From positions 2,418,001-2,482,000 of the forward strand of contig NZ_CP021431.1 in assembly GCF_002158905.1 (NCBI RefSeq): 64,000 bases of DNA, written 5' to 3'. Numbering within the stretch: position 1 is the stretch's first letter; every line of letters begins with the position of its first letter. Positions 1-51,542 of the stretch are shown here, in pieces. This DNA comes from Yoonia vestfoldensis. Lineage in GTDB: Bacteria; Pseudomonadota; Alphaproteobacteria; Rhodobacterales; Rhodobacteraceae. A model generated the notes under the pieces. The model had not been told where the DNA came from. It did no database searches and saw nothing but the letters and a program-made list of their open reading frames with translations. Made by a program: the position numbers and the translations under genes.

Positions 1-2
1 TG

Positions 3-32474: not shown

Positions 32475-32528
32475 GGTTGTTCTCCTTGTGGCTATCCATG
32501 CCATTAACCTACAGAACACGACGGGCTG

Positions 32529-35192: not shown

Positions 35193-36809
35193 ATGCCGAA
35201 AGTCCCAATCAATCCGATTCCTTCTAGTAGACTATCAATTGCAGAAATTAGCGACTCTGGGGGGTGGAGATTGTTCATGCGAATGGCGCATGAACCGTTG
35301 GAAGCGGGCCAAGCGATCAGCGACGAACTTGCGCAAATGTGGCCCGAGGCGGTCCTCGGAATTATCTTTTCTGAGGCCAAGAGCGGGGCGACGGTCAAGG
35401 CAAGAAATGATTTCCAACGATGGAAAAGTGCCTTTGAGACGATGGCCCAGTCTAACCCCGAACTCGCCGTAGACATCGATCTTGTTGACATGCACCTAGC
35501 AGTTTACGAGGATAGATCGTTTGCCCAGAGCGATCTGGAGCGCATGAGGATAGTACGGCAAAATGTTGCCGAAGGGGACCATATCGGTCGGGGCCTGGCC
35601 TGTAACCACCTTTGTAATATCGCGCTTCAAATGGGTGATTTTGACCTCGCTCAAAAATACGCGGAACAGGCGATAAGAGCATATCTTGATGGCAAAGCGG
35701 ATTTTGGTGCAATGCACCTTCACACGCATCTGGCACAAATCCGATTGATGCGTGGTGATTTGGACGGTGCGAACGACGTGCTGCGAAGCATGGAAGCGCA
35801 GCTTGGACGTCTGCCTGGGCAGGCTCAATGGTTGATATCTGTTGCGCGAATATTGCGCGCAGAAGTGGCCTATGAAGCCAACGATCTTGAGCAAGCCAAG
35901 CTGCTTTTTCGCACGGCGTTCAATCATGTGGAATATAAGGACGCGTGGTTTGACATCTTGACAGCCGCTTACCGCGTCAGCACACGACTGGCCTTCGCAG
36001 AGTCCGGACTGCCAGGTGCACTTGAAGCCCTCTCCCATGCTGAACAGATGGCGCAAGATAGAGCCATGCCGCGTCTGTATCGCTTAATGCAGGTCGAGCG
36101 CGTGCGAGCCCTCACCTTGTCCGACGAACTTCGTGCTGCAACGAACTTGCTCAGTGAAATAGGAGTATCAACCGACAGATCACAGCTGGAAGAGAGCCAG
36201 GATCTGGCTTTTCGGCAGGGTACGACGTTTGTTGCTGTTGCGCGGCTCATGGTGCGAAATAGGAGATCTCAGGACGCACTTTCTTTTATAGCACCGGCAG
36301 AGGACTTGGCTATTCGGCGAGGTCAGTTGCTTTCACTTGCCAAGCTACGGGTGGTTGCTGCAATGGCACACTGGCAGTTGGGTAGTCGTATGGAGGCGAC
36401 TACCAGCCTTCTGAGCGCTATCAGACTTCTTGGCGAGCAACCATTCTATCGTTTCATACTCGATGAAGGGCCGCAGATGCGGTTCATCGTTCAAGCAGCT
36501 TTGGATGGTGACTATGTTTCCGTCCGACCCACGCGTTCTCAACGCCGCAGGCTGAGTGAGATGATGCAATATTGGGTAACTCAAGGCCGAGTTAATCCAG
36601 GGCAGGAGAAAAGTGACGTTGCTGACTTACACCATCGCTATATCGAACTTTTGGCTCTTGGGCACGCCAACAAGGAAATAGCCCGCATTATGGGCGTTTC
36701 TGACAACACAGTTAAGTATCATTTAAAGCAAATATTTCGCGATCTTGATGCCGACAATCGAGGCCGAGCAGTTCAGCGGGCCAGAGATCTCGGATGGCTT
36801 GATACCTAA
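35193..36809 (+). CDS. LuxR-type regulator with MalT-like helical repeat body
   Basis: 538 residues. The long alpha-helical middle has TPR-like units (GDFDLAQKYAEQAIRAYLDG, GDLDGANDVLRSME, NDLEQAKLLFRTAF). The last 65 residues are a LuxR HTH (YIELLALGHANKEIARIMGV, SDNTVKYHLKQIFRDL). The arrangement is that of the C-terminal half of MalT/LAL regulators without the N-terminal ATPase (no Walker A). It likely activates the flanking operons through the repeats at 36809 and 50637. Start could also be at 35289. Confidence 0.82.
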   Translation: MPKVPINPIPSSRLSIAEISDSGGWRLFMRMAHEPLEAGQAISDELAQMWPEAVLGIIFSEAKSGATVKARNDFQRWKSAFETMAQSNPELAVDIDLVDMHLAVYEDRSFAQSDLERMRIVRQNVAEGDHIGRGLACNHLCNIALQMGDFDLAQKYAEQAIRAYLDGKADFGAMHLHTHLAQIRLMRGDLDGANDVLRSMEAQLGRLPGQAQWLISVARILRAEVAYEANDLEQAKLLFRTAFNHVEYKDAWFDILTAAYRVSTRLAFAESGLPGALEALSHAEQMAQDRAMPRLYRLMQVERVRALTLSDELRAATNLLSEIGVSTDRSQLEESQDLAFRQGTTFVAVARLMVRNRRSQDALSFIAPAEDLAIRRGQLLSLAKLRVVAAMAHWQLGSRMEATTSLLSAIRLLGEQPFYRFILDEGPQMRFIVQAALDGDYVSVRPTRSQRRRLSEMMQYWVTQGRVNPGQEKSDVADLHHRYIELLALGHANKEIARIMGVSDNTVKYHLKQIFRDLDADNRGRAVQRARDLGWLDT

Positions 36810-36833
36810 CTACCCCATTGGGTAGTCGCCTGC
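36809..36833 (+). promoter_or_regulatory. Candidate operator/promoter of the rightward operon
   Basis: Inverted repeat ACTACCCCATTGGGTAGT followed by CGCCTGC. The same repeat and flank occur, inverted, at 50637-50661. A TAGACT box and TTCATC follow at 36839-36852 and are partly shared too. The racemase start is 49 bp beyond. Confidence 0.7.
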
Positions 36834-36881
36834 TGAGCTAGACTGTTTCATCCTACTTCCAACCAAGGGGGTGATTGAAGC

Positions 36882-37640
36882 ATGGCTACGAAAAACCGAG
36901 TACATATTATCACGCCCCTTATCTCTGAGGGCTTCCGCGATGATAGCTCCCTGAGCGAGTTGATAGAGCTCGACTGTCAACTTAGCTCCCGCTTACTGAC
37001 CAGGGGACCCGCTTCTGTCGAGTCCGCCGTCGACGAAGTCCTCGCAGCGCCTGGTGTTGTAGATGCTGCCATTAAGGCTGAAAAAGGCGGCGCGCAGGCG
37101 ATCGTGATCGACTGTATGCTTGATCCTGGGCTGGCTGCTGTGCGTGAGGCAGTTTCAGTTCCGGTGGTCGGTGCGGGTGCTGCAGGCTTGGAAGCTGCAG
37201 CTGCCCTTGGGCGCTTCAGCATTGTGACAGTTCTTGATCGGCAGGCACCTATGTTCCATGCCTTGGCATTGCGGCATGGCCTTGCTGACCGGTTGACGTC
37301 TGTTCGTGGCATCGGCGTCCCTGTGTTGGAGCTTGAAGATGATCGTGATGTTGCTATTGCCAAGACCATTGAGGCATGTCGAAAAGTGTTCTCAGAGGAT
37401 TGCGCTGAAGCCATTGTCTTTGGCTGCACAGGTATGCTGGGATTTGCCGTGCCCGTCGCTGAGGCGCTCGGAATTGCAGCAAGTAAGATAATCGATCCGT
37501 TGCCGAATGCGGTTCGTGCCGCACTGGCCGCCATCCCCCAGGGTGGATCTGGCCTGCCCAAACCGGAACGCAAACGGGTCTGCGGATTTGAAGCGTGGAA
37601 AGATCTCAATGAACTGATGCAACCGGAGGCAAGGCTGTGA
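36882..37640 (+). CDS. Asp/Glu/hydantoin racemase family protein
   Basis: 252 residues. Both family cysteines are present in context: AIVIDCMLDPGLAAV and AIVFGCTGMLGF. The family includes hydantoin racemase, Asp/Glu racemase and maleate isomerase; MATKNRVHIITPLISEGF suggests the hydantoin-racemase side. Placed first in an operon with hydantoinase A and DUF917 genes it probably racemises a hydantoin or amino acid. AAGGGGG ahead of the ATG. Confidence 0.85.
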   Translation: MATKNRVHIITPLISEGFRDDSSLSELIELDCQLSSRLLTRGPASVESAVDEVLAAPGVVDAAIKAEKGGAQAIVIDCMLDPGLAAVREAVSVPVVGAGAAGLEAAAALGRFSIVTVLDRQAPMFHALALRHGLADRLTSVRGIGVPVLELEDDRDVAIAKTIEACRKVFSEDCAEAIVFGCTGMLGFAVPVAEALGIAASKIIDPLPNAVRAALAAIPQGGSGLPKPERKRVCGFEAWKDLNELMQPEARL

Positions 37641-38530
37641 CCCAGTTGACTGTGCCACAATCAACATTTCATCAAGCGCGACTGAAGTGGCTGCTTGTCG
37701 TCCCGCTGATGATTTTCTTTCTTGTCTTCTTTGTCATTCCCGTTGGTCTGATGTTTGCCAGTTCGTTCAATCCGCAAACGCTTGGCCAAGTTTCTGTGAC
37801 GACTGAACTGACATTTGATAACTACATCCGCTTTTTCAGTCGCTCAAATTACTTGATGGCGGCTGGGCGCTCAATGATGCTGGGGGTGGTGGTTGCTGCG
37901 GTGACCTTGGTCATCGCCTATCCTATGGCCTTCGTCATCGCAAAGACAGAGAGCCCTGCACGAAATACATTTTTGCTGATCCTTGTCCTTGCTGCAATGC
38001 AACTAGACATGGTGATCCGGCTCTACGGAATGATGGTCATCCTTGGCGACAATGGATTGATTAACCAGATGTTGGTTGGGCTTGGTCTGAGAAGTGAGGG
38101 CAGTCCACTGCAGCTGATGTATAACTTCCTAGGTGTAGTTCTCGGCCTTGTGCAATTCGCGCTCCCCTTCATGATCCTGACCCTCATGGGCGTTATCCGG
38201 GGAATCAACCCCAGCCTTGAGGAAGCGGCCCGTAGCTTAGGTGCATCGCGTCGCCGCGCTTTTTTCCGCGTCACGTTGCCGATGTCGATGCCCGGTATCC
38301 TCGCGGGATCTCTGCTTGTCTTCTCTCTGTCGATTTCATCCTACATTGTTCCCGCATTGATGGGTGGCTTCCGCGTTGGTGTCCTACCTGTCCATATCTT
38401 CCAACAGGTAGCCGACGGAGCGCGATTCCAGTTTGGCGCTACGATTGCAGTAATCCTCTTCCTGCTCAGCGCCGGGGCGGTGGCGGTCTACCTGCGCCTT
38501 GGAAACCGTCAATCTGGAGGGCTCGCCTGA
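37637..38530 (+). CDS. ABC transporter permease, spermidine/putrescine type (PotB-like)
   Basis: 297 residues, GTG start overlapping the racemase stop. Six hydrophobic segments (first: LLVVPLMIFFLVFFVIPVGL) and the EAA loop EEAARSLGASRRRAFFRVTL. First of two permeases of a PotABCD-type importer; the natural substrate here is probably a cyclic amide or amino-acid derivative. Confidence 0.9.
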   Translation: MTQLTVPQSTFHQARLKWLLVVPLMIFFLVFFVIPVGLMFASSFNPQTLGQVSVTTELTFDNYIRFFSRSNYLMAAGRSMMLGVVVAAVTLVIAYPMAFVIAKTESPARNTFLLILVLAAMQLDMVIRLYGMMVILGDNGLINQMLVGLGLRSEGSPLQLMYNFLGVVLGLVQFALPFMILTLMGVIRGINPSLEEAARSLGASRRRAFFRVTLPMSMPGILAGSLLVFSLSISSYIVPALMGGFRVGVLPVHIFQQVADGARFQFGATIAVILFLLSAGAVAVYLRLGNRQSGGLA

Positions 38531-39327
38531 TGGAACGCAAAATTCCCCTACCTATCATGATATTGGCGATCGCTGGATTTGCCTACATGCTCTTACCCAT
38601 CTTTGTTGTGGTCTTGGCGGGCCTGACCGCCGGAGAGTTTCTGACGTTCCCACCCCAAGGTTTCAGTCTGCGCTGGATCGCAGCCTTCCTGCAGTCCGAA
38701 AAATACTTGTCGGCCTTTTTCTTTTCCTTTCAGTTGGCACTGATGACGATGATCGTGTCGACGGTTCTTGGAACCGCGGCCGCGCTTTTCCTGAGCCGCA
38801 CCGATATCGTCGGCAGGGGCGCGATGCGGGCATTCTTCCTGTCGCCAGTCGTGCTACCCGGGGTGGTTGTGGGCTTTGCGCTCTTTGCCTTCTACATCTC
38901 AACAGGCATTGGACTGTCTCGTACGATCTGGGGTCTCTGGATAGGGCACATTCTCTATTCCACGCCGTATGTGATCGGCACGGTCGGTGCCGCTCTGGCC
39001 GCCTATGACGTGTCGCTCGAAGAGGCCGCGCGCAGTCTGGGATCCTCGCCGTGGCGGGCGTTTCGTAAGGTCACGCTGCCCAATATCAGCCAGGGGATTC
39101 AGGCCGGTTCCATCTTTGCCTTTATCGTCAGCTTTGGACAGTTCGAGGTTTCCCTTTTCCTGTCGTCGCCCAACTCAGAACCTCTGCCGATCGCGATGTA
39201 TAATTCGCTGCGCTACAAATCCGACCCTTCGGCAGCTGCCGCCGGCATCTTTGCCATCACGCTTGTGATTGCTTCGGTCCTGCTGACCAACCGTCTCGTG
39301 AATATTCGAAAGTTGCTGGAACGCTAG
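38530..39327 (+). CDS. ABC transporter permease, spermidine/putrescine type (PotC-like)
   Basis: 265 residues, ATG in a TGATG overlap. Six hydrophobic segments and EAA loop EEAARSLGSSPWRAFRKVTL. Pairs with the preceding permease. Confidence 0.9.
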   Translation: MERKIPLPIMILAIAGFAYMLLPIFVVVLAGLTAGEFLTFPPQGFSLRWIAAFLQSEKYLSAFFFSFQLALMTMIVSTVLGTAAALFLSRTDIVGRGAMRAFFLSPVVLPGVVVGFALFAFYISTGIGLSRTIWGLWIGHILYSTPYVIGTVGAALAAYDVSLEEAARSLGSSPWRAFRKVTLPNISQGIQAGSIFAFIVSFGQFEVSLFLSSPNSEPLPIAMYNSLRYKSDPSAAAAGIFAITLVIASVLLTNRLVNIRKLLER

Positions 39328-39373
39328 CAAGACTGACTACCTCGTGTCCTCAATCAACAGGGAGAACCAAAAA

Positions 39374-40480
39374 ATGACACGCAAGTTAATTGCACCAACT
39401 CGTCGGACAATCTTGAAAGGCGGTGCAGCACTCGGTGCAGCATCGGTCCTTCAAGCGCCATTCATTAACCACGCCTGGGCTCAGGACGTATCCTATGACG
39501 GCGGCGTCTTCGATGCCGGCGGCGCCACGCTAACAATCGGGGAGTGGGGCGGCGGCTGGGAGGAATTCGTGCGCGGTGCACTGACCGACCAGTTTGAAAA
39601 GGATTTCAACTGCACCATCAACTGGGACAGTTCTTTCCCGTGGTTTCCCAAGTTCGTGACCCGCGGTCCACAGGATCCGGCCTATGATATGGCAAACTGG
39701 AATCTTCCAGAGCTAACCCAAACAAAACAGGCAGGCGACTATTTCCTGTCTGTCGATGAAATTCGTGAAAACGTTCCCAATACCGCCAACTGCTGGGATT
39801 TTGCATTTGCCAGTGGTGCAGGCGTGACTTGGGCCTATATGCCTTACGTCTATGCATACCGCACAGATATGGGAGACCCCGTTACAGGCTTCCGTGATTT
39901 CTGGCAGTCCCGTTTCGCCGGGAAACGCGGAACCTATCACGCTGAAAACGGTCTGATGCATGCGTTCTTCATGGCCACAGCCAAAGAGTTCGGCGCGGAT
40001 CAATACGACATGAACGCCGCTTTCCAGGCCCTGGAAGACGCCATGCCGATGAAGATCTCGGAGTTTACGTTCAACATGCTCTCGTTGATCGAACGCGGTG
40101 AAGTGGACGTTGCAGTCCACATCGAAGGAGAGGCGCTTTCGCTCAAGCGTAAAGGCGTTCCGGTGGATGTTTGGCAATGGGATAGCAAACCGATCATCAC
40201 CCAAACTAAGACGATCAGCCGTTATGCGGATCCGATGCAAAAGAAACTGTCATTTGCGCTTCTCAACCGAACGCTCAGCCCAGAATTCATGAACGCGTTC
40301 GGGGATGAGTTCCTTTGGCGTCCCACCAACTCGGAAGCAACGATTACCGCTGCACTTGCCGAGGAAGGTGTGACCAACTCACCAGAAGCGGTCAATGAAT
40401 TCTGGGTGCCTGACTGGGATTTCTTTGTTGAGAACAAGCTCGAGATCACTGACCGACTGAACCAGATTTTTGGTCTTTGA
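39374..40480 (+). CDS. ABC transporter substrate-binding protein (polyamine-type), Tat signal
   Basis: 368 residues from MTRKLIAPTRRTILKGGAAL, a twin-arginine leader ending at HAWAQ. The mature part has GEWGGGWEEFVRGALTDQFEK, SSFPWFPKFV and EFWVPDWDFF, as in polyamine/Fe-type binding proteins. Start chosen because AGGGAGAA precedes it and the leader begins there. Confidence 0.88.
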   Translation: MTRKLIAPTRRTILKGGAALGAASVLQAPFINHAWAQDVSYDGGVFDAGGATLTIGEWGGGWEEFVRGALTDQFEKDFNCTINWDSSFPWFPKFVTRGPQDPAYDMANWNLPELTQTKQAGDYFLSVDEIRENVPNTANCWDFAFASGAGVTWAYMPYVYAYRTDMGDPVTGFRDFWQSRFAGKRGTYHAENGLMHAFFMATAKEFGADQYDMNAAFQALEDAMPMKISEFTFNMLSLIERGEVDVAVHIEGEALSLKRKGVPVDVWQWDSKPIITQTKTISRYADPMQKKLSFALLNRTLSPEFMNAFGDEFLWRPTNSEATITAALAEEGVTNSPEAVNEFWVPDWDFFVENKLEITDRLNQIFGL

Positions 40481-40531
40481 ACCTACCTGGCAGGCCAGCG
40501 AACTGGCCTGCCACCCCAATTGGAGCCCGCA

Positions 40532-41578
40532 ATGTCATTCGTAAATTTCCAAGGTGTTACAAAAAGTTTTGGCGCGACGGTTGCCGTCGAGGAGCTGAAT
40601 CTCCAGATTGAGCAAGGCGAATTCTTTTCCCTTCTGGGTCCATCAGGTTGCGGTAAGTCGACAACGCTGAGAATGCTGGCGGGCTTCATCGCGCCTTCAA
40701 CTGGCAGGATCGGCGTGCATGGTCGTGATATAACGACATTGCCACCGGAGGCGCGCGATATTGGCATCGTCTTCCAGAACTACGCCATCTTTCCGCACAT
40801 GACTGTATTTGACAATATTGCATTCGGGTTGGTTGAGCGCCGCGAGGACCGTGCAACGATCAAGCGCAAGGTTGATGCCGCGCTGGAGCAGGTTGGTCTG
40901 TCGGGTTACGGTGAACGCTACGAACGTGAGCTTTCTGGCGGACAGAAACAACGTGTCGCACTCGCGCGTGTTCTGGTCATCGAACCAGAAATCCTGTTGC
41001 TGGATGAGCCGCTTTCAGCACTTGATAAAAAAATGCGCGAAGAAATGAAATTTTGGATCAAGAATATCCAGAAGTCCGTCGGTATCACAACAATTTACGT
41101 GACGCATGACCAGTCCGAAGCTTTGACCATGTCAGATCGGATCGCCATTATGAATGAGGGTCGCGTATTGCAGATCGGCTCTCCGGTTGAAATCTACGAA
41201 CATCCCAACTCCCGGTTCATCGCGGAATTCATTGGAGAGTCGAACCTGCTGTCAGGACGCTTGGCTGACGGCGGTGTCATGGTTGGCGGTGTCAAGGTTC
41301 CCGTTCCAGAAGCTTCAGGGCAAACGGATCAAGAAGTTGCCTTATTGATCCGTCCGGAACAGATCCGGTTGGAGCCAATAACACCCGATGAGACGCCCAA
41401 GCTGGAAGGCCGTGTCATCGATGAAGTCTATCAGGGTTCCATTCGGCGCTATCTGGTTGAAACCATGGGCCAGCGGTTGAACGTCGAAGTCCCCAACCGA
41501 CCCGACTTGGCGCAACTTCCCCCTGGCGCGGATGTTTCGCTTTATTGGCGTCCCGAAAGCGGTGTCGTGCTGCGATAG
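40532..41578 (+). CDS. ABC transporter ATPase (PotA-like)
   Basis: 348 residues from MSFVNFQGVTKSFG. Walker A GPSGCGKST, Q-loop FQNYAIFPHM, signature LSGGQKQRVALAR, Walker B ILLLDEPLSALD and a C-terminal TOBE-like domain (IRPEQIRLEP). Completes the importer. Confidence 0.94.
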   Translation: MSFVNFQGVTKSFGATVAVEELNLQIEQGEFFSLLGPSGCGKSTTLRMLAGFIAPSTGRIGVHGRDITTLPPEARDIGIVFQNYAIFPHMTVFDNIAFGLVERREDRATIKRKVDAALEQVGLSGYGERYERELSGGQKQRVALARVLVIEPEILLLDEPLSALDKKMREEMKFWIKNIQKSVGITTIYVTHDQSEALTMSDRIAIMNEGRVLQIGSPVEIYEHPNSRFIAEFIGESNLLSGRLADGGVMVGGVKVPVPEASGQTDQEVALLIRPEQIRLEPITPDETPKLEGRVIDEVYQGSIRRYLVETMGQRLNVEVPNRPDLAQLPPGADVSLYWRPESGVVLR

Positions 41579-41606
41579 CCCCCAAAATTTTTCAAGGATA
41601 AGAAAC

Positions 41607-43145
41607 ATGAAGATCGGTGTAGACGTAGGCGGCACCAATACGGATGCTGTCGTGATGGGGTCGGCTGGGGTGGCGGGTTGGAAGAAATCTCCGACCACGA
41701 AAGACGTCCAGTCGGGGGTGGTAGCAGCGATAACCGCTGCTATGGAAAGCGCTGGTGCTCAGGCGAGCGATATCGATTGCGTAATGATCGGCACCACGCA
41801 GTTCACCAATGCAGTGATTGAGAGGAGATCTTTGCTGCCGGTTGGTGTGATCCGACTGGCGTTGCCGGCAACCTCCGCAATTCCACCGCTCACTGACTGG
41901 CCTGCTGACCTTGTCGAGGCGGTCGGGCGCAATACTGTCCTTGTCGGTGGGGGCTACGAATTTGACGGTCGGGAAATCGCTCCGCTGGACGAGAAAGCGG
42001 TAGCGCAAGCGGCCCGTGAATGGGCGAAAAGGGGACTGAAGACCGCAGCAGTTACGTCAGTTTTCTCGCCAATGAACGGCGAGATGGAGCGCCGCGCCGC
42101 TGAGATCATTCGCAATGAAGCTCCGGATATGGCGATATCTTTGAGCGCAGAACTGGGACAGTTCGGACTTTTACCGCGTGAAAACTCTACCATCATCAAT
42201 GCGTCATTGGCCGACTTAGCCGTGCATGTTGTGACGGCCTTTCGAAAAGCTTTGGAGCAACTGGGTTTGGTAGTTCCACTGTTTATCAGCCAGAACGATG
42301 GGACGCTGATGCGGGTCGAAGACGTAGAGCGCTATCCCGTGCTGACCTTTGCGTCAGGACCTACAAATTCGATGCGGGGTGCTGCGCATCTGGCAGGCAT
42401 CGGAGATGCAATGGTTGTGGATATCGGCGGTACGACGTCCGATATCGGAATGCTGCGAAAGGGCTTTCCGCGACAATCGACTCATTTCGTTGACGTGGGC
42501 GGGGTTAAAACCAATTTCCGTATGCCTGACGTACTCGCAGTCGGTCTTGGTGGTGGCACGATCGTTAGAGACGACGGAAAACGGCTCGGGCCTGACTCCG
42601 TTGGCTATGAGCTAACGCAACGCGCGCTTTGTTTCGGGGGTGACACGTTAACTTCGACGGATATTGCCGTGGCGGGTGGCTGGGCTGATGTTGGTGATGC
42701 TGCGCTGGTCAAATCAATAAGTGCCGCCACGATCAAAGCCGCACGGACTGAGATGATACGTCTGATCGAGGCCAACGTAGACAAGATGAAAACCGAAGCA
42801 CGTGATCTGCCATTGTTGGTGGTTGGCGGGGGTTCAATCCTTGTGGACTGGCATGTGCAGGGCGTATCCGAGGTGCTGCGACCGGAGTTCTCATCCGTCG
42901 CAAATGCAGTGGGTGCCGCTATTGCGCAGGTTTCGGGTGAGGTAGAGAAAGTCACCTCGATTACTGAAGCCAACCGCGAACAGGTTATGGAGGACGCGCG
43001 AGAGGAGGCCAGAAACAATGCGATCAAGGCCGGTGCGATCCCCGAATCTGTCGAAGTGATCGAGGTTGAACAGGTGCCGATCAGCTATCTTCCCGGGAAC
43101 CCGTCGCGCCTTCGTGTGAAGGCTGTCGGCAACTTGCCTGTTTAA
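41607..43145 (+). CDS. Hydantoinase/oxoprolinase family protein, HyuA-like
   Basis: 512 residues from MKIGVDVGGTNTDAVVMG. Actin-fold phosphate loops DVGGTNTDAV and VVDIGGTTSDIGML, plus GLGGGTIVRDDG and a GGGSILVD block. The family opens hydantoin or oxoproline rings, often with ATP. The short form (about 510 residues) paired with DUF917 is a recurrent arrangement. ATG preceded by AAGGATAAG. Confidence 0.9.
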   Translation: MKIGVDVGGTNTDAVVMGSAGVAGWKKSPTTKDVQSGVVAAITAAMESAGAQASDIDCVMIGTTQFTNAVIERRSLLPVGVIRLALPATSAIPPLTDWPADLVEAVGRNTVLVGGGYEFDGREIAPLDEKAVAQAAREWAKRGLKTAAVTSVFSPMNGEMERRAAEIIRNEAPDMAISLSAELGQFGLLPRENSTIINASLADLAVHVVTAFRKALEQLGLVVPLFISQNDGTLMRVEDVERYPVLTFASGPTNSMRGAAHLAGIGDAMVVDIGGTTSDIGMLRKGFPRQSTHFVDVGGVKTNFRMPDVLAVGLGGGTIVRDDGKRLGPDSVGYELTQRALCFGGDTLTSTDIAVAGGWADVGDAALVKSISAATIKAARTEMIRLIEANVDKMKTEARDLPLLVVGGGSILVDWHVQGVSEVLRPEFSSVANAVGAAIAQVSGEVEKVTSITEANREQVMEDAREEARNNAIKAGAIPESVEVIEVEQVPISYLPGNPSRLRVKAVGNLPV

Positions 43146-43158
43146 CTGGAGATCGAAA

Positions 43159-44241
43159 ATGGAATTGAAATTGGAAGACGTTGATGACCTGTGCACAGGC
43201 GCTGCATTTCTTGGCGCAGGCGGAGGCGGCGATCCCTATATCGGGGGGCTGATGATCAAGGAGGAACTACGTGCAGGCCGCCGAATTGAAATAGTCGATC
43301 CGGACACACTGGATGATGATGCCCTCGTCATTCCTACGGCAATGATGGGTGCGCCAACAGTTCTGTTGGAGAAAATTCCGTCGGGTGAAGAAGCCATTAG
43401 GGCCCTGCAAACCGTTGAGAAAGCGCTTGGCCGCAAAGCAACCGCCACCATGCCGACAGAAGTTGGCGGGATTAATTCGACTATACCGCTATTTGTCGGT
43501 GCGCGGCTTGGCATTCCTGTCGTTGATGGCGACGGACAAGGCCGCGCATTTCCGGAAATCCAGATGGAAACTTTTGCGATCGAAGGTGTGGCGGGAACGC
43601 CGATGGCGATTGCGGACGAAAAAGGAGACTATGCGTTGATCCAGACGGAGGATCACCACCGGATGGAGTGGATCGCCCGCGGTATTACGATCCGTATGGG
43701 GGGGACCGCTTATTGGTCTGCCTATCCGATGGACGGAACGCAAGTCAGGCGTGCTTCCGTCAAGCATACCCTGACGCTTGCCCGCAAGATTGGTCACATT
43801 ATCCGGACAGCGCGGAGCCGAAAACAGGATCCGTTCGAAGAGTTGGAGACGTTCATCGCGACCACCAGCTATGGGAAAGCCAAACGCATCTTTTCGGGAA
43901 AGATTGTGGATCTGGAGCGTCAGACCAAACAGGGGTTTACAATGGGCACAGTAAAGATCGCGCCGGATGATGGTCAAGGTGCGCCCTGCACGATCTCATT
44001 CCAGAACGAGAATCTGTGCGCCAAGTCCAATGAAACACTTCTGGCCATTGTTCCCGATATCATTTCCATTCTGGATGCGGAGACAGCCGTCCCAATTACC
44101 AACGAAACGCTACGTTTTGGCCAACGTGTCGTTGTCATGGCCGTGGGGGTGCCTCCTATCATGCAAAGCCCTGCCGCCTTGAAACAATTTGGCCCCGAGG
44201 CGTTTGGCATGCTCGAAACTTACGTGCCGTTGAACGGTTGA
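43159..44241 (+). CDS. DUF917 family protein
   Basis: 360 residues. MELKLEDVDDLCTGAAFLGA and GGGGDPYIGGLM start the domain, then MMGAPTVLLEKIPSGEEA, EVGGINSTIPLFVG and VDGDGQGRAFPEIQM. Paralogue of the partial protein at the left edge. One family member is an S-methyl-thiohydantoin desulfurase; the reaction here is unknown but is presumably on a hydantoin-like ring with the HyuA-like neighbour. Confidence 0.9.
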   Translation: MELKLEDVDDLCTGAAFLGAGGGGDPYIGGLMIKEELRAGRRIEIVDPDTLDDDALVIPTAMMGAPTVLLEKIPSGEEAIRALQTVEKALGRKATATMPTEVGGINSTIPLFVGARLGIPVVDGDGQGRAFPEIQMETFAIEGVAGTPMAIADEKGDYALIQTEDHHRMEWIARGITIRMGGTAYWSAYPMDGTQVRRASVKHTLTLARKIGHIIRTARSRKQDPFEELETFIATTSYGKAKRIFSGKIVDLERQTKQGFTMGTVKIAPDDGQGAPCTISFQNENLCAKSNETLLAIVPDIISILDAETAVPITNETLRFGQRVVVMAVGVPPIMQSPAALKQFGPEAFGMLETYVPLNG

Positions 44242-44259
44242 TCTTTGGGGGCCGGTCAC

Positions 44260-45633
44260 ATGTTTGTTTCAGTCTTTGATATGTTTAAGATCGGCATCGG
44301 CCCGTCATCGTCGCACACGATCGGCCCGATGGTCGCTGCCGCACGGTTCCTGGACCATCTGCGCGCGCAGCCTTTCGCCGTTGCAGGGTTGCGTGCCTCT
44401 TTGCATGGTTCTCTGGCGTTTACTGGGGTCGGTCATGCCACTGACCGCGCGGTTATCCTAGGTTTGTCGGGTTTCCGTGCCGATGATTACGATGCCGCGC
44501 TGGCAGAAGCTGAATTGGCCCGCATCAAAGTCGAAGGTTATGTGATACCCGAGGGGCTTGGGCGGTTGACGTTCCAGCCTAGGGATGATCTTGAGTTTGA
44601 TTACGGGCCACCTTTACTTGGCCACGCAAATGGCATGATCCTCAAAGGCTGCGATGCGCAGGGCGATGTGATTACGCAGGTGACCTACTATTCAGTCGGT
44701 GGTGGCTTCGTTCTGACCGAAGAGGAACTTGCGCAAGGACGCGAAGTTAATGTTGGCGCGCCCGTCCCCTTCCCCTTCAAATCCGCGAATGAGATGCTGG
44801 AAATGGCAGCCGAAAGCGGCCTGACTATAGCGCAAATGAAGCGCCAGAATGAATGCGCTCTCAAACCACATGCTGAATTGGATAAAGAACTGATTCGAAT
44901 TTGGAAGGTCATGAGCCGATGCATCGACCGTGGACTTGAAGGTGAAGGAGAATTGCCTGGCGGGTTGCGGGTCCGACGCCGCGCCAAGGCGATTCACGAA
45001 ACGCTAAGGGCTGAACATGGCATTAACCTAACTGCGCCGCACGTCATCAACGACTGGATTTCCACCTATGCTATGGCGGTGAACGAGGAAAACGCTGCTG
45101 GCGGGCAAGTCGTTACTGCCCCTACCAATGGCGCGGCAGGGGTTGTTCCCGCCACGATCCGTTACTGGCTGGACCATGTCCCGGGAACAACCAGCGCAGG
45201 GGTGCCAGATTTTCTGATGACCGCTTCTGCAATCGGGGGGCTGATCAAGTTCAATGCCTCGATATCTGGTGCCGAGGCAGGTTGCCAAGCTGAAGTTGGT
45301 AGTGCTTCCGCTATGGCCGCTGCAGGCTTATGCGCTGTTATGGGTGGTACACCAGAGCAGATAGAGAACGCAGCAGAGATTGCGCTGGAACATCATCTTG
45401 GGATGACGTGCGATCCCGTACGCGGGTTAGTCCAAGTGCCTTGCATTGAGCGCAATGGGTTGGGAGCAATAAAGGCGATCTCTGCGGCCTCGCTTGCGCT
45501 GCGCGGTGATGGTCAGCATTTGGTTCCGCTAGATTCATGTATAGAGACGATGCGCCAAACCGGTGCGGACATGAGCAATAAATATAAGGAAACAGCCTTG
45601 GGTGGGTTGGCAGTTAATATTCCCAACTGTTAA
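44260..45633 (+). CDS. sdaA: L-serine ammonia-lyase, iron-sulfur type, single chain
   Basis: 457 residues from [31 protein letters not shown] and the three cluster cysteines ([32 protein letters not shown]) are present. The enzyme makes pyruvate and ammonia from L-serine through a 4Fe-4S centre. Its presence says the pathway yields serine. ATG at 44260 chosen; 44245 is a TTG. Confidence 0.93.
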
Positions 45634-45728
45634 TTTTCGTATTGGGCATTCGAACCGTAAGTCAAACCCTATTCAGAAAGTGTGCGCACCATCTTTGTTT
45701 TCTTTTTTATAACGCGATAAGGCAAGGA

Positions 45729-45743
45729 GGGAGTATCACTCCC
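45729..45743. terminator. Hairpin between the convergent operons
   Basis: GGGAG-TATCA-CTCCC, ~95 bp after the sdaA stop and ~45 bp from the end of the opposing operon. No T-run follows directly, so termination is only suggested by position. Confidence 0.35.
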
Positions 45744-45788
45744 GATAGAACCGAAAGTGTTCAATCTTGCTTTTATGTTCACAACAGC

Positions 45789-46754
45789 TCAGAAGTCGAC
45801 CTCGATTGCGAGCCCATTTTCAACCGCCAGATCGACCACCGCAGCTGCGACTGCCAAGTCCTGCAAGCCCACTCCGGTGCCATCGAAGAGAGTGATCTGC
45901 GTGTCCGATGTCCGGCCCTGATCGCTGCCGTTGATCACTGAACCCAGCCGCACGATGTCACTTTCGGCCAGAAGTCCTTGCGCAACCGCATGCTGCGCCT
46001 CGCCGATGGTGATGGATTGCGTGACTTCATCCGTGAAAACGCGCGCGCGGGCCAAAAGCGCTGCTTCCACCTCTTGCTTGCCCTTCGTATCGGTGCCCAT
46101 GCAAGCGATATGCGTGCCAGAGCTGACGTGGTCAGCCATAAGCGAGGGCGCAAAGGCGGAGGTGATCGAAATGATCACATCCGCCTCGCCCATACCCGGC
46201 AGGTCCACGGCTTCAAAGCGTAACCCGGCCTCGGCTGCGATTTTTTCAATGTTGGGTAACATCTCGGGGTGGTAATTCCAACCGATCACCTTTTTGAACG
46301 GGCGCTGTTCCAATGCGGCGCGAAGCTGGAACGTCGCCTGATGGCCCGCGCCGATCATGCCAATCACCGATGCATCGGGGCGGGCCAGATGCTTGATCGA
46401 CACCGCGGATGCCGCAGCGGTCCGCAACGCAGTCAGAAGGTTGCCACCCACCATCGCAGTGGGTTTGCCCGTATCGGGATCAAAGAGGAACACAGTGGAC
46501 TGGTGATTGATCAGCCCGCGCTTTTCAAGATTGTTCGGCCAGTAGCCCCCCGCCTTGAGGCCAAGCATCAAACCGGCGCGGTCAAACCCGCCTTTGAAAC
46601 CGTAAAGCGCATCCTCATGCCCCAACGACTCGCGAACAACCGGAAAGTTGTAGGCGGCACCGGATGCCATGGCGGCAAAGACCTTTTCGACGGCGTCGAA
46701 AGCGGCCTTGCGGGTAATGAGGTCGGCAATGTCCCGTTCGGGTACGATCAGCAT
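45789..46754 (-). CDS. bhcD: Ornithine cyclodeaminase-family reductase, BhcD-like iminosuccinate reductase
   Basis: 321 residues from MLIVPERDIADLITRKAAFD. NAD-binding VIGMIGAGHQATFQLRAAL; also GGNLLTALRTAAASAVSIKHLA. In the beta-hydroxyaspartate cycle BhcD reduces iminosuccinate to L-aspartate. It lies last in a bhcB-bhcC-bhcD order, which supports the assignment. The longer frame to 46877 runs into the intergenic spacer and has no leader. Confidence 0.85.
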   Translation of the reverse strand: MLIVPERDIADLITRKAAFDAVEKVFAAMASGAAYNFPVVRESLGHEDALYGFKGGFDRAGLMLGLKAGGYWPNNLEKRGLINHQSTVFLFDPDTGKPTAMVGGNLLTALRTAAASAVSIKHLARPDASVIGMIGAGHQATFQLRAALEQRPFKKVIGWNYHPEMLPNIEKIAAEAGLRFEAVDLPGMGEADVIISITSAFAPSLMADHVSSGTHIACMGTDTKGKQEVEAALLARARVFTDEVTQSITIGEAQHAVAQGLLAESDIVRLGSVINGSDQGRTSDTQITLFDGTGVGLQDLAVAAAVVDLAVENGLAIEVDF

Positions 46755-46815
46755 GGCGTGGTCTCCTTGATAAGTTGCGGGCCGACATGACCGGCCCGCT
46801 TGATGATCCGTGCAA

Positions 46816-47982
46816 TCAGTATGCGCGGCCGCGCGCCGACACGGGCCAAACGCATTCGACCTTGCCGTTCCGGACACCTACGTACCAATCATGCACGTTG
46901 GCGGTCGGGTCGCAGTGGCCGGGCACCAGCTTCAGCTTGTCATTCACCTTCAGCACGCCATTGGGGTCGGAAATCACGCCATGCTCGTCCGAGCATTTGA
47001 TGTATTCCACATCGTTGCGCCCATAGATGAACGGCAGGCCGCTATCGACCGACTGCGCCTTGAGGCCTGCATCGCAGATCGCCTTGTCGGCCTTGGCATG
47101 GCTCATCACGCTGGTCAGGATGAAGAACGCGTTTTCCCATTCGCCTGCATCGATCCGCTTGCCATCTTTGTCCAAAATCCGGCCATAGTCGGCATCCATG
47201 AAGGCATAGGAGCCGCACTGAAGTTCGTTGTAGAGGCCCGAATTGCTCTCGAAATAATATGACCCCGTGCCGCCGCCCGAGACCAGTTCAGTTGCAATCC
47301 CTTCGGCTTTCAACGTCTCGACAGCGTCCGAGACCTGTGCAATCGCCGCGTCCAGTTTGGCCTTGCGATCCTCAAAGCTGTCGATGTGCTGCATCGCGCC
47401 CTGATAGGCTTGGATGCCCTTGTATGTCAGGCTTTCAGCCGCTTTTACGGCGCGTGCAAGCTCGACAACTGCCGGGGTCGTGGTGACGCCGCAACGCCCC
47501 GCGCCGCAATCGATCTCGATGAAGACGCCCAGGTTCGTTCCATGTTTTGTTGCCGCCGCGGACAGGTCGGCGACGTTGGCCACATCGTCGATACAGACGA
47601 TGACCTCGCCGCCGCTCATCTTTGGCAGTTGCGCAAGCCGTTCGATCTTGACGAGGTCACGCACCTGGTTTGAGACAAGGATTTCCTTGACGCCCGCGCG
47701 GGCGAAAACCTCTGCCTCGGACACCTTCTGGCAGCAGACGCCGACAGCACCCCCCAGTTCCATCTGAAGCTTCAGCACGTCAACCGACTTGTGCATCTTG
47801 CCATGGGCGCGGTGGCGCATGCCATGCGCCTTGGCGTAATCGCCCATCTTCTTGATGTTGCGCTCCAGCGCGTCTAGGTCCAGCACCAACGCGGGCGTCT
47901 GGATGTCCGCCGCGTCCATTCCGGGTTTGGCGGGAATGTCGAAACCGACTTCATAGGCGTCAAAATCAATTATGTCTTTCAT
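46816..47982 (-). CDS. bhcC: beta-hydroxyaspartate aldolase, BhcC-like
   Basis: 388 residues. Alanine-racemase-type barrel with the PLP-lysine stretch RHRAHGKMHKSVDVLKL, a DCGAGRCGV motif, SGGGTGSYYFES, and a C-terminal metal site VPGHCDPTANVHDW. BhcC/D-threonine aldolase-type enzymes join glycine and glyoxylate to beta-hydroxyaspartate or split it. Length equals Paracoccus BhcC. Confidence 0.9.
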   Translation of the reverse strand: MKDIIDFDAYEVGFDIPAKPGMDAADIQTPALVLDLDALERNIKKMGDYAKAHGMRHRAHGKMHKSVDVLKLQMELGGAVGVCCQKVSEAEVFARAGVKEILVSNQVRDLVKIERLAQLPKMSGGEVIVCIDDVANVADLSAAATKHGTNLGVFIEIDCGAGRCGVTTTPAVVELARAVKAAESLTYKGIQAYQGAMQHIDSFEDRKAKLDAAIAQVSDAVETLKAEGIATELVSGGGTGSYYFESNSGLYNELQCGSYAFMDADYGRILDKDGKRIDAGEWENAFFILTSVMSHAKADKAICDAGLKAQSVDSGLPFIYGRNDVEYIKCSDEHGVISDPNGVLKVNDKLKLVPGHCDPTANVHDWYVGVRNGKVECVWPVSARGRAY

Positions 47983-47996
47983 CGAAAATCTCCTTT

Positions 47997-48950
47997 TCAG
48001 CCCAGCACCCAGGGCAGTTTGTCCAGATCGACGTTGCCGCCGGTGATGATGACGCCAACGCGTTTGCCGCGGAATGCGTCCGGGTTTTTCAGAATGGTCG
48101 CGAGCGGCACCGCGCTTGAGGGTTCCATGACAGCGCGCAGATGCTTCCAGATCAGCTTCATCGCGTCCACGATCTCTTGCTCAGATGCCGTGTAGATTTC
48201 CGAGACATGGCGCGACACGAAGTGCCAGGTCAGATCCTTGAGCGGCACAAGTAGCCCGTCCGCGATGGTTTGCGGCGCATCGTCCGCGATGATGTAGCCA
48301 GCCTTGAAGCTGCGATAGGCGTCGTCAGCCTGTTCAGGCTCGGCCGCAATCACCTTGGTTTCAGGCGCGAGGGTGGCAAGCGTAAGGCAGGTGCCGGAAA
48401 TCATGCCGCCGCCACCGATAGGTGCCACAACCATATCCAGCCCGTCGGCCTGCTCCATGAATTCCTTGGAACAGGTTCCCTGCCCCGCGATCACGCGCGG
48501 ATCATTATAGGGATGAACGAAATCGCCCCCGGTCGCGGCCTGCACCCCGGCAAAAGTCGCCTCGCGCGACGAGGTCGAAGGCTCGCATTCGGTGATCTTG
48601 CCGCCATAGCGGCGCACGGTGTCCTTCTTGGCCTGGGGGGCGGTGCGCGGCATGACAACATTGCACGGAATGCCGCGCAGCATGGCCGCATAGCTGAGGC
48701 ACGAGGCATGATTGCCCGAGGAATGCGTCGCGACACCCTTCGCGGCTTGACGCTGGTTCAGCCCGAACACCGCATTTGCCGCTCCGCGAACCTTGAAAGC
48801 CCCCGGTTCCTGGAAGTTCTCGCATTTGAAGAAAAGCTGACAGCCTGCCACCTCATTCAGATAGTCAGACGTCCGAACCGGCGTGCGGCGGATATGCGGG
48901 GCAATGCGATCGTGCGCTTCAAGCATGTCGTTGTAGGTCGGGATATACAT
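47997..48950 (-). CDS. bhcB: beta-hydroxyaspartate dehydratase, BhcB-like
   Basis: 317 residues. PLP fold type II: FKCENFQEPGAFKVRGAANA (Lys), SSGNHASCLSYAA, GGGGMISGTCLTLA. Converts beta-hydroxyaspartate to iminosuccinate with loss of water. Shares family with threonine/serine dehydratases, but its position next to bhcC and bhcD is decisive. ATG overlaps the dehydrogenase stop. Confidence 0.9.
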   Translation of the reverse strand: MYIPTYNDMLEAHDRIAPHIRRTPVRTSDYLNEVAGCQLFFKCENFQEPGAFKVRGAANAVFGLNQRQAAKGVATHSSGNHASCLSYAAMLRGIPCNVVMPRTAPQAKKDTVRRYGGKITECEPSTSSREATFAGVQAATGGDFVHPYNDPRVIAGQGTCSKEFMEQADGLDMVVAPIGGGGMISGTCLTLATLAPETKVIAAEPEQADDAYRSFKAGYIIADDAPQTIADGLLVPLKDLTWHFVSRHVSEIYTASEQEIVDAMKLIWKHLRAVMEPSSAVPLATILKNPDAFRGKRVGVIITGGNVDLDKLPWVLG

Positions 48951-50233
48951 CAGGCAGCCCCCCGCATTTTCATGGGCACCGGGTTGACCGGGCTTGCGAT
49001 TTTGGCTGCATTGACAATGCGTGAGGTCATGACCTTTTCAGCTACCATCTCGGCAGTCACGGCCGACAGCGTCCAGCCAAGATGGCCGTGCCCGGTGTTA
49101 TAGAAGACGCGATCACGCGCGCCCTGCCCGACCTTCGGCATCATGTTCGGCATCATCGGGCGCAGGCCAGCCCACGGCACAGCGTGTTCGGTACTGACGC
49201 CCGGAAAGAACCGTTCGCACCATTTCACCAGCGGGCGGATCCGGTCATCGCGGATATCGAGGTTGTAGCCATTGAATTCGGCCGTGCCCGCGATCCGAAA
49301 GCGATCCTTGCCGAGGCGGCTAGTCACCACCTTGGCTTCGTCATCCAGCAGGCTGATCCATGGTGCAGCGCACTGGCTTTCCGCATCATCCAGACGGACA
49401 GTGATCGAGTAGCCCTTGACCGGATAAACATTCACGCGGTCGCCGAGTTGCTTTGCGATCGTCCGGCTTTCCACACCGGCACAGACGACAATGGCGTCGA
49501 AAGTTTCTGTCTGGCTCTCGTTGTTCCTGCTCCAAGTCAGGCGGACTTCGTTTTTGTCGACTTCGAGCGCGTCGACATCGGTGCCAAAGCGTAGAACCGC
49601 GCCGCCTGCCTCGATGGATTTGGCAAGGCCCGTGGTATAGCGATGGATATCGCCGGTAAAATCGCTCTCTGTGTAGTAGCCGCCATAAAAATCGCCGCTC
49701 AGCGCGGGTTCGAACTGACGGACTTCCTCTGGTGTCACGGCCCGGCGTTCCAGCCCACCCTCGGCCAACAGTTTGTTGACCTCGGTCGCGTGATCGAACT
49801 CGGCCTTTTTAGTGTAAATGTGCAGGATACCGCGGTTCTCGCAGTCGAAGTCAAATCCGTGGCGCTCGGCCTTTTCTGTCAGCAAACCGCGCGCAGCGAT
49901 CGCCATGCGGGTCGTTTCGACCGTGTTGGCGCGGTATTGCGGGATCGCGCCGACAAATTCTGCCATCCAACTGTACTTGTGCCAACTGGGCTTGGGATTC
50001 ACCAAAAGCGGCGCGCCCCGTGTCATCATCCACTTCATGCCTTTGAAAACGGTGGACCACCGGTTCCAGGTTTCGGCATTTGAGGCCGACAGCTGTCCGC
50101 CATTGGCAAAGGATGTCTGCATCGCTGCATAACGGTTGCGGTCAAACAAGGTAACGTCATAGCCCCGATCCATAAGGCTTGATGCAGTTGTGACACCGGT
50201 AATTCCAGCGCCGATCATGGCAATTCGGGTCAT
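48950..50233 (-). CDS. D-amino acid dehydrogenase, DadA-like
   Basis: 427 residues. FAD site MIGAGITGVTTASSLMDRGY and a C-terminal TGHGHLGWTLSAVTAEMVAE. DadA-type enzymes oxidise D-amino acids (and some relatives oxidise glycine or sarcosine) and pass electrons to the chain. In place of BhcA, the usual first gene of the cycle, it may make glyoxylate from glycine or deaminate a D-amino acid from hydantoin cleavage. First gene of the leftward operon. Confidence 0.88.
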   Translation of the reverse strand: MTRIAMIGAGITGVTTASSLMDRGYDVTLFDRNRYAAMQTSFANGGQLSASNAETWNRWSTVFKGMKWMMTRGAPLLVNPKPSWHKYSWMAEFVGAIPQYRANTVETTRMAIAARGLLTEKAERHGFDFDCENRGILHIYTKKAEFDHATEVNKLLAEGGLERRAVTPEEVRQFEPALSGDFYGGYYTESDFTGDIHRYTTGLAKSIEAGGAVLRFGTDVDALEVDKNEVRLTWSRNNESQTETFDAIVVCAGVESRTIAKQLGDRVNVYPVKGYSITVRLDDAESQCAAPWISLLDDEAKVVTSRLGKDRFRIAGTAEFNGYNLDIRDDRIRPLVKWCERFFPGVSTEHAVPWAGLRPMMPNMMPKVGQGARDRVFYNTGHGHLGWTLSAVTAEMVAEKVMTSRIVNAAKIASPVNPVPMKMRGAA

Positions 50234-50636
50234 TGCGTCCTCCGGGACTCTGGGGTTTCGTCCTATTAGATGTATGGGCCGGTAGGTATTGCTGGTTTTC
50301 GACCAGCGGCAGCGAGTAATCAGCGCGAGAAGTCTTAAACTCAGGTGAGCCCGTCAGTCGGTCATGACTGACAGCGCTTCTTTCTTCATGGACTCCGCCA
50401 GTGGTATTCAGTGCGCTGGATCGAATAGGCTTGGTCAGAGGGCCATAATAAAGTTAACCGGTCCATTTCTCATGAAAGCCAAGCACAGTTGACTGCCCAC
50501 TATGATCAGACCCCCAGCGGTGCGCTCACAGGTGTAGAAATATGAATTCGAGCGCGCGATATTTTGTAAACAACTGTGTTTGCTCATTAGCGGGGAACCT
50601 TTTTTGATTTCTTGATAGATGAAGCAAGTCGGGTCC
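50234..50636. other. Long leader between the leftward operon and its presumed promoter
   Basis: About 400 bp, no supported gene. Contrasts with the 49 bp leader of the rightward operon; possible 5' untranslated RNA or a second promoter. Confidence 0.4.
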
Positions 50637-50661
50637 GCAGGCGACTACCTGAATGGGTAGT
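50637..50661 (-). promoter_or_regulatory. Candidate operator/promoter of the leftward operon
   Basis: ACTACCTGAATGGGTAGT with the flank GCAGGCG to its left. On the minus strand it reads ACTACCC, spacer, GGTAGTCGCCTGC, as at 36809, and then TTCATC about the same distance on. Same orientation relative to the transcription it would drive. Confidence 0.65.
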
Positions 50662-50721
50662 AATAATTTCTGAAACAAATATCAGGTCACGTATAACAGA
50701 CTGGGGAAGAAAGCAGCCTGG

Positions 50722-51241
50722 TGTTGAGAGTGTTTGATCCCACGGTTTGATGGTGCGATCCTTTCGTTGGAATGGAAGGGGAAACATTATGGGACAAGTT
50801 CGTGACGGGAGCACCACTACCACGCATGCTGTCAGAGCTACGATACATCGATCGCAAGCTTAGCTCGCACAGTTGAGCAAGGAGCTGGGCATCAACCCCA
50901 AAACTGTCGCAAAGTGGCGCAAGCGTGCGACGGTCGAGGACTTGAAGACTGGGCCAAACGAGCCGCGTTCGACCGTTCTCACCGTAGCGGAGGAAGCCAT
51001 GATCGTCGCATTTCGGCGGCACACGCTATTGCCGCTGGATGATTGCCTATGATCTTCAGCCTTCTTGCCTGCACCTGACACGGCCGGTACTGCGTCGTTG
51101 CCTTCAGTGGCATGGCATCTCGCGCTTATCAGATGTCGAGTGATAAGCCAAAGCGCCAGCAGTTCAAGCGCTATCCTATCGGTTTCTTCCACATAGACAT
51201 TGCCGAGGTTCAGACGGCGGAGGGCAACCTCTATCTCTTTG
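50722..51241 (+). pseudogene. IS481-family transposase remnant
   Basis: From ATG 50789: GQVRDGSTTTTHAVRATIH, a TAG at about 50861, then LSKELGINPKTVAKWRKRA, FRRHTLLPLDDCL and a frameshift, then FKRYPIGFFHIDIAEVQTA in a third frame. It ends abruptly at LYLFA. The N-terminal HTH and the first DDE aspartate region of IS481-type transposases are seen; the rest is deleted. Confidence 0.82.
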
Positions 51242-51515
51242 CGCAATGTGCCGGACGCGCCCGCATTGATGACCTCCTCCCCCTGCTGGACGAACAGGAT
51301 CGCGCCGGGAATGTCCGGCAAGGTGGCCCAGCCAGCCACCAAACCGTCGAGCATGTCGGGCGGAGATTCGGCAAACACCGGTCTTGTCGCGCTCCAGAGC
51401 ATCAGAGCATCAGAGCATCAGAGCATCAGAGCATCAGAGCATCAGAGCATCAGAGCCGCGTAAACGCCTGCCGCAAGGAGCGCAGCCGAAAAAAAAGCGC
51501 ATTGATCATTAGCAT
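51242..51515 (-). pseudogene. Serine hydrolase (beta-lactamase-like) 5' fragment
   Basis: Encodes LWSATRPVFAESPPDMLDGL, VAGWATLPDIPGAILFVQQG and GEEVINAGASGTLRK, a class C beta-lactamase-type start, then runs into the IS481 remnant. The likely leader (FFSAALLAAGVYAAL) is one base out of frame with the ATG at 51515 across a run of eight T, and is separated from LWSATR by an expanded 8-bp repeat. Confidence 0.7.
51395..51456. repeat. 8-bp tandem repeat (CAGAGCAT)n
   Basis: Seven full copies plus six bases. One copy would fit the leader of the broken hydrolase (ALMLW), so this is a local expansion. In frame it brings TGA, so expansion adds to inactivation. Confidence 0.95.
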
Positions 51516-51542
51516 GGGGCGCTTAAGGCTCATTGGTGCAGC

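Follow-up and report, generated by a model that had tools for sequence, protein, structure and literature searches.

The window analysed here is a 64,000-nucleotide stretch of the Yoonia vestfoldensis genome (contig NZ_CP021431.1, positions 2,418,001 to 2,482,000), in which two convergent operons, one of hydantoin-type genes on the forward strand and one of dadA and beta-hydroxyaspartate (bhc) genes on the reverse strand, each begin beside a copy of the same inverted repeat. Judged by sequence, these repeats are very probably operators of the LuxR/MalT-type regulator encoded next to the first of them, at 35193. The explanation that we consider probable is that both repeats are operators of this protein, and that the second is a later promoter copy that put dadA-bhcBCD under the same inducer.

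Both sites were found by pattern search. Operator 1, the 18-bp dyad ACTACCCCATTGGGTAGT at 36809-36826 (+), is kept in 19 of 20 related loci; it shares the last base of the regulator stop codon and lies 55 bp ahead of the racemase ATG. Operator 2, the extra copy ACTACCCATTCAGGTAGT at 50661-50644 (-), is separated from the dadA ATG by 410 bp to which no gene is assigned, and its right half carries one change (AGGTAGT for GGGTAGT). CGCCTGC follows directly after both repeats (36827-36833 at site 1, 50643-50637 at site 2), and TTCATC lies 21-26 bases beyond them (36847-36852 and 50623-50618). Since the repeat is palindromic, its direction was taken from this flank, which is on the racemase side at site 1 and on the dadA side at site 2. 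The initial annotation had described the two repeats with CGCCTGC, and TTCATC about 20 bp on, pointing into their operons, and our searches confirmed this arrangement. With up to two mismatches, ACTACCCNNNNNGGTAGT matched the window at 3 places, giving 5 strand-matches; besides sites 1 and 2 this was 38853, with 2 mismatches. Shuffled windows gave a mean of 0.27, and 0/100 reached 5. With up to one mismatch, the pattern ACTACCNNNNNNGGTAGT (ACTACC-N6-GGTAGT) occurred at sites 1 and 2 only in the whole 3.99-Mb genome, and its backwards-read control occurred 40 times.

The dyad travels with the regulator. An earlier scan of the genome collection with the single window protein returned 0 loci, and a scan with an alignment of this protein and 27 homologues returned 20, in which the relatives of the regulator were 45-67% identical to it. 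The sequence ACTACCC-N4-GGGTAGT stood just ahead of an Asp/Glu racemase gene in 19 of these loci (exact in 16, one mismatch in 3). With up to one mismatch it occurred once per genome in 19 of the 20 regulator genomes, whose completeness is not stated. In 16 of the 19 loci, the regulator match ended no more than 15 bases away from the start of the dyad; the dyad lay 199 bases past the match in locus L057 and 381 bases past it in L055. In L058 a serine ammonia-lyase gene is found between regulator and dyad, and the dyad remains at the racemase promoter. The first importer gene followed the racemase in 17 of 19 loci, L042 having other genes there and L052 reaching the contig end. In L042 (L042:12289-18734), a nitroreductase-like gene, an 891-residue LuxR-like gene and a HyuA-DUF917 pair replacing the importer are found downstream of dyad and racemase. 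Near-copies occur among the 20 loci (L051/L052/L054, L049/L060 and L046/L048). Two further loci scanned together with them, L004 and L034, had no dyad and stand outside the counts, since they are not loci of the alignment scan.

The association was also examined in samples from the family and the class. Among 394 family genomes, the regulator (E<=1e-80) was detected in 3 and the exact dyad in the same 3, and 391 had neither. By contig number and position, two of the three (G655 and G472) are those that carry loci L044 and L048 and thus belong to the 20 already, and the third is the window's own, so the new information from this sample is the 391 absences. The backwards control of the dyad matched in 2/394 genomes. 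Among 385 class genomes, the regulator was detected in 1 and the exact dyad in 2, namely the window's own and G040; in G040 it forms a terminator hairpin followed by a T-run, and the backwards control matched in 15/385. The initial annotation had named the protein at 35193 as the simplest common regulator and had proposed a genome search for the motif together with it. Such a search, with the dyad in 19/20 regulator loci and in 3/3 against 0/391 family genomes, supports that assignment well.

Promoter layout was compared in 17 promoters, after the near-copies L046, L051, L052 and L060 had been dropped. Each of the 14 arm positions was invariant or differed in one sequence, and the 4 loop positions varied; across 21 dyads the arm changes were 4 one-sided and 0 two-sided. 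Downstream, A at +24 and T at +28 after the dyad accounted for 23 of 34 letters in the 17 promoters, which 0/20,000 shuffles reached. From this enriched spacing, a -10 element CATCCT is predicted for promoter 1 at 36849..36854 (+). For promoter 2, the predicted -10 region is CATCTA at 50616..50621 (-), with A rather than T at +28 and T at +29. The distance from dyad to -10-like element suggests that the operator would lie over the -35 position, where many LuxR-type activators bind; by sequence, the fixed spacing upstream of the -10 fits the layout of such activators, and site 2 fits it less well. Transcription is predicted to start near 36861 and 50609, the latter implying a dadA leader of about 376 nt.

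Site 2 resembles site 1 beyond the dyad itself. Over the 26 bp downstream, 18 bases are identical between the two sites, and 0/200,000 one-side shuffles reached 18; the best relative flank shared 12/26 with site 1 and 11/26 with site 2. The 15 bases upstream of the two sites showed no mutual resemblance. Because 18 of 26 flank bases match site 1, where the best relative matches 12, site 2 looks like a copied promoter. A chance origin of the repeats was ruled out by the window shuffles, the genome-wide uniqueness, the coincidence with the regulator in family genomes and the flank shuffles. About 72 bp upstream of operator 2 lies repeated DNA (50733..50838) that we take as insertion-sequence debris; it is 81% identical to part of contig C3 (39 kb) of this genome. 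Beside it, transposase-like debris with stops and frame changes was seen by eye at 50860-51120 (+), which we take to be IS481-like. Promoter duplication beside an acquired operon would be the simplest history. The leader contains a 50-codon open frame (50438-50587, -) between site 2 and dadA. A decayed operon-gene copy in the leader (50234-50643) was considered and rejected: tblastn of 13 operon proteins against 50234-52000 gave a best E of 0.23, with no match inside the leader. The leader had no DNA match to any other locus compared.

The regulator (35193..36809, +, 538 residues) was assigned from Pfam, homologues and predicted structure as a MalT-like TPR region (TPR_MalT, 77.3 bits, cut-off 45) followed by a C-terminal LuxR/GerE helix-turn-helix (HTH) domain (GerE, 38.0 bits, cut-off 23.5). 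MalT itself carries an ATPase half; the N-terminal ATPase domain of STAND-type MalT had no Pfam or NCBIfam match in the 538 residues, and the MalT equivalog model matched over its positions 847-896 of 903 only (40 bits, 537 required). The predicted structure (mean pLDDT, the predicted local distance difference test score, 87.4), used solely for secondary structure, is helical from residue 44 to the HTH and has no strand of three or more residues. By sequence and model, the regulator is a MalT-like protein that lacks the N-terminal ATPase half. Homologues in a protein search numbered 138, of which 120 were listed, and the closest relatives (P0001-P0009) were compared as proteins only. Two further matches to the regulator occur in its own genome, one of them covering the HTH end only. 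Transposase genes of the IS110 and IS256 families lie upstream of the regulator (31563-33644, -).

The operon behind site 1 begins with a gene of the Asp/Glu/hydantoin racemase family (36882..37640, +), a family match whose best solved relatives are hydantoin and allantoin racemases. It continues with an ATP-binding cassette (ABC) importer of the spermidine/putrescine kind (37637..41578, +), consisting of permeases at 37637 and 38530, a binding protein of the twin-arginine translocation type at 39344 and an ATPase at 40520. A family match identified the next gene as a HyuA-like hydantoinase/oxoprolinase of 537 residues (41532..43145, +). The last two genes encode an S-Me-THD (DUF917) family protein (43159..44241, +), which scored 95 bits where the model of the named thiohydantoin desulfurase requires 440, and an L-serine ammonia-lyase (44245..45633, +; TIGR00720, 593 bits, cut-off 345). 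The lyase hints at serine among the products of this operon. DUF917 proteins are described, in the text of the source available to us, as without experimental characterisation so far, with hydrolysis of hydantoin-like rings suggested (PMC11055893). A sister cluster lies just to the left of the window (L116, G000:C1:2409089-2418890, plus window positions 1-890). It encodes a 793-residue LuxR regulator, HyuA and an ABC ATPase of the oligopeptide type and has two DUF917 genes, of which the second extends into the window. In this paralogue, two copies of ACCTATCCCT in direct orientation follow the regulator gene, and no dyad was found within 4 mismatches.

The operon behind site 2 consists of four genes on the reverse strand: a dadA-like flavin adenine dinucleotide (FAD) amino-acid dehydrogenase gene in the place of bhcA in other clusters (48950..50233; NF009074, 698 bits, cut-off 494), bhcB for beta-hydroxyaspartate dehydratase (47997..48950; NF045641, 577.4 bits, cut-off 550), bhcC for 3-hydroxy-D-aspartate aldolase (46816..47982; NF045642, 737 bits, cut-off 690) and bhcD for iminosuccinate reductase (45789..46754; NF045643, 575.9 bits, cut-off 500). 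The bhcD start was set at 46754 and not 46877 from the start codon, the upstream sequence and the model match, which begins at residue 42 of the longer frame. Of the genes of a beta-hydroxyaspartate cycle cluster, bhcB, bhcC and bhcD all scored above their NCBIfam cut-offs. By these models none of the four operon genes is bhcA, which is found elsewhere in the genome (L113). An inverted repeat, GCGGGCC-N9-GGCCCGC, lies between bhcC and bhcD (46777-46799). The nearest solved structures to the dadA-like protein by sequence are glycine oxidases. It matched in 205 plasmid records, of which 2 regions were read; in one of them, on Aminobacter pMET1, the relative (62.5% identical) lies directly ahead of malate synthase G, an enzyme that uses glyoxylate.

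The genome contains three bhcC copies, in the window, on contig C3 (80%) and at C1:351192 (74%). The C1:351192 copy is accompanied by bhcB, bhcD and bhcA, and no dyad within 3 mismatches was found on the 16 kb taken there. On C3 (L114:5624-9596), the further bhcB-bhcC pair is preceded on the same strand by the gene of another FAD amino-acid dehydrogenase, 29% identical to the window dadA. In the genus, bhcC was matched in 38/56 genomes, the window's own included, and the order dadA-bhcB-bhcC-bhcD was found a second time in G017 (L115:6982-11404; dadA, bhcC and bhcD matches in pieces), with no dyad nearby. GC content was 0.549 in the hydantoin-type operon versus 0.594 in the bhc operon; GC at third codon positions (GC3) was 0.52-0.69 in the former, regulator included, versus 0.70-0.75 in the latter. 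Matches to the bhc region occurred in 571 plasmid records, of which one region was read (Marinovum pMaD4, L126). bhcA is present there by position and annotation, and in the related region L117 by family model. The window bhc operon is accessory.

More distant regulators were examined in nine further loci with longer or more distant LuxR proteins, namely eight plasmid loci and the paralogue L116. The plasmid records included 101 with a regulator match and 78 with a DUF917 match, and 8 regions were read. A dyad within 3 mismatches (CCTACCC-N4-GGGTAGG or a variant) was found in 5/8 plasmid loci. It lay between regulator and hydantoinase genes in Pararhizobium (CCTACCCATACGGGTAGG), R. tumorigenes (CCTATCCATATGGGTAGG) and Leisingera thetidis (CCCACCCACACGGGTAGG), ahead of the racemase in Aureimonas (ACTATCCAAACGGGTAGG), and just past the regulator match in Rhizobium WYJ-E13 (CCTACCCGAACGGGTAGG), a record without annotation. 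R. leguminosarum (L131) and Aminobacter p1 (L132) had looser palindromes with a similar half, and Aminobacter p2 (L135) had no clear dyad. The sequences suggest that this operator type is older than short regulators of the window kind.

These data are consistent with a mechanism in which an HTH dimer of the 35193 protein would bind the 18-bp dyad at the -35 position and, on sensing a substrate or product of the operon, would recruit RNA polymerase. Site 1 would be the old, conserved target, the promoter of the racemase-ABC importer-HyuA-DUF917(-serine ammonia-lyase) genes, whose products would take up and open a hydantoin-like or cyclic amide compound. The copy at site 2, ahead of the accessory dadA-bhcBCD operon, would bring glycine/glyoxylate assimilation under the same inducer. 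With the reaction order of the beta-hydroxyaspartate enzymes as generally known, DadA may convert glycine or a related amino acid into glyoxylate, BhcC may join glyoxylate to glycine, and BhcB and BhcD may turn the product into aspartate. This glyoxylate reading would explain why a bhc operon stands under the regulator of hydantoin-like degradation. On the sequence evidence, control of both operons by one regulator is likely; it looks like a lineage-specific addition, for which a shared pathway is one plausible reason. A more specific version is tentative and, in our judgement, rather improbable: that a single-operon regulator gained its second target by duplicating its own promoter and so joined hydantoin-type ring opening to a bhcA-less, DadA-fed shunt that makes aspartate from two glycine units, the cycle thereby taking a new, linear form.

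Several observations weigh against the assignment of both sites to this regulator, or against the part given to site 2. L045 (G064) has the regulator without the dyad, and no operon lies on its piece either. In the genus, one-mismatch dyads occurred without this regulator in 4/55 other genomes, at 5 places. Two of these (L087:1501-1518 and L088:1501-1518) adjoin response-regulator-like LuxR genes, judged by eye from translations, and the other 3 do not. Other LuxR-type proteins may therefore bind similar sites, which is the main caution against an exclusive assignment. The initial annotation had held that the motif at unrelated genes lacking the regulator would speak against its proposal; in the genus this was found in part, as one-mismatch dyads, and in the family sample the exact dyad tracked the regulator. 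No dyad within 3 mismatches was detected in 3/8 plasmid loci. A second dyad was present in 0/19 dyad-bearing relative genomes; because no relative genome has the second site, site 2 is without comparative support of its own. Its distance to dadA is 410 bp, one of its arm positions is mismatched and the -10 T is missing. Finally, the dadA relative in Shinella (65%) has neighbours that do not point to glyoxylate.

The initial annotation had concluded from the shared repeat that the hydantoin-type and bhc genes work as one pathway, a claim that goes further than the comparison supports. In its linear form, the hydantoin-type operon would yield glycine or glyoxylate that the bhc operon must assimilate, and we regard this as possible, with the balance leaning somewhat against it. 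The operator is common to both operons here, the racemase is related to allantoin racemases, and both related bhc regions read for neighbours (L126, from its annotation, and L117) are accompanied by genes of the purine/allantoin kind. However, the regulator-dyad-racemase unit had no bhcC match (E<=1e-60) in 13/19 dyad-bearing genomes, and the serine ammonia-lyase suggests a different or additional product. bhcC was matched in 6/20 regulator genomes, none of which has a second dyad, their sole dyad being at the racemase. Five of these six bhc regions were taken (L117, L119-L122), and the sole dyad within 3 mismatches was in L121, about 5 kb from bhcB. That the window bhc operon holds one of three bhcC copies, and differs in GC3 from the hydantoin-type operon, likewise weakens the case that the shared repeat makes for a single pathway.

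Under a second alternative, which we consider unlikely, regulator and operators would be the same, site 2 would be the remnant of a promoter that insertion sequences had displaced, and transcription of the bhc genes would begin at another promoter nearer dadA. The 410-bp gap without an assigned gene, the repeated DNA about 72 bp upstream, the arm mismatch, the weaker -10 and a same-strand promoter-like match at 50473-50445 agree with this. Yet the dyad and 18/26 flank bases have been kept, only a 50-codon open frame lies between site 2 and dadA, and the 8 promoter-like matches found in the region are about what shuffled sequence gives (mean 7.6). We think it very improbable that one or both sites are used chiefly by a LuxR/NarL-type protein of the genome other than that at 35193. 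Two sibling genomes have a one-mismatch dyad adjoining a response-regulator-like LuxR gene (by eye), and the genome has its two further regulator matches, one at the HTH end only, but the dyad coincides with the regulator in the family sample and lies close beside it in 16/19 loci. That the repeats are intrinsic terminators or RNA hairpins rather than protein-binding sites is scarcely credible: site 1 follows a stop codon, a scan lists 50644-50661 as terminator-like on the + strand only and the unrelated exact match in G040 is a terminator, but no T-run follows site 1, or site 2 toward dadA, the arms are conserved in sequence with 0 two-sided changes in 21 dyads, the L058 dyad remains with the racemase promoter, and the region has fewer terminator-like sites than shuffled sequence (10 vs 15.0).

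With both repeats read as operators of the 35193 protein, the locus provides a testable operator for regulators without the MalT ATPase half and for hydantoinase/DUF917 operons. It also illustrates clearly how a regulator with one target can acquire another, in which case the regulon would have grown by operator copying. If the metabolic reading is true, beta-hydroxyaspartate enzymes would serve, in place of the known cycle, as a shunt that an amino-acid dehydrogenase supplies. Among the papers that our literature searches listed, compared by title and opening lines of the abstract, none presented an operator with this sequence or a dadA-bhc operon, and the motif may already have been published.

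A local LuxR-type activator is ordinary in kind; what is unusual here is the second, copied target and the bhcA-less bhc operon. Like MalT and MalT-like activators, the window regulator has a TPR_MalT region and a C-terminal GerE HTH and adjoins a transporter/catabolic operon; unlike them, it has 538 residues without the N-terminal ATPase region, and its operator is an 18-bp inverted repeat, whereas MalT boxes are short asymmetric repeats. The hydantoinase/oxoprolinase-ABC operons of Pararhizobium p3, R. tumorigenes, Leisingera thetidis and Aureimonas pAU20b share the operon logic and a related promoter dyad, but their regulators have 857-899 residues, HyuA and HyuB replace racemase, HyuA and DUF917 in 3/4, the outer dyad bases are C/G in 3/4, and each stretch read has one dyad within 3 mismatches. 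The known bhcABCD cluster of Paracoccus denitrificans is described, in the part of the source available to us, as controlled by the IclR-type activator BhcR (PMC11323563). The window operon shares bhcB, bhcC and bhcD with the cluster as described there; it differs in that no bhcR was recognised, dadA stands for bhcA, and a LuxR-type dyad takes the place of the IclR-type BhcR site.

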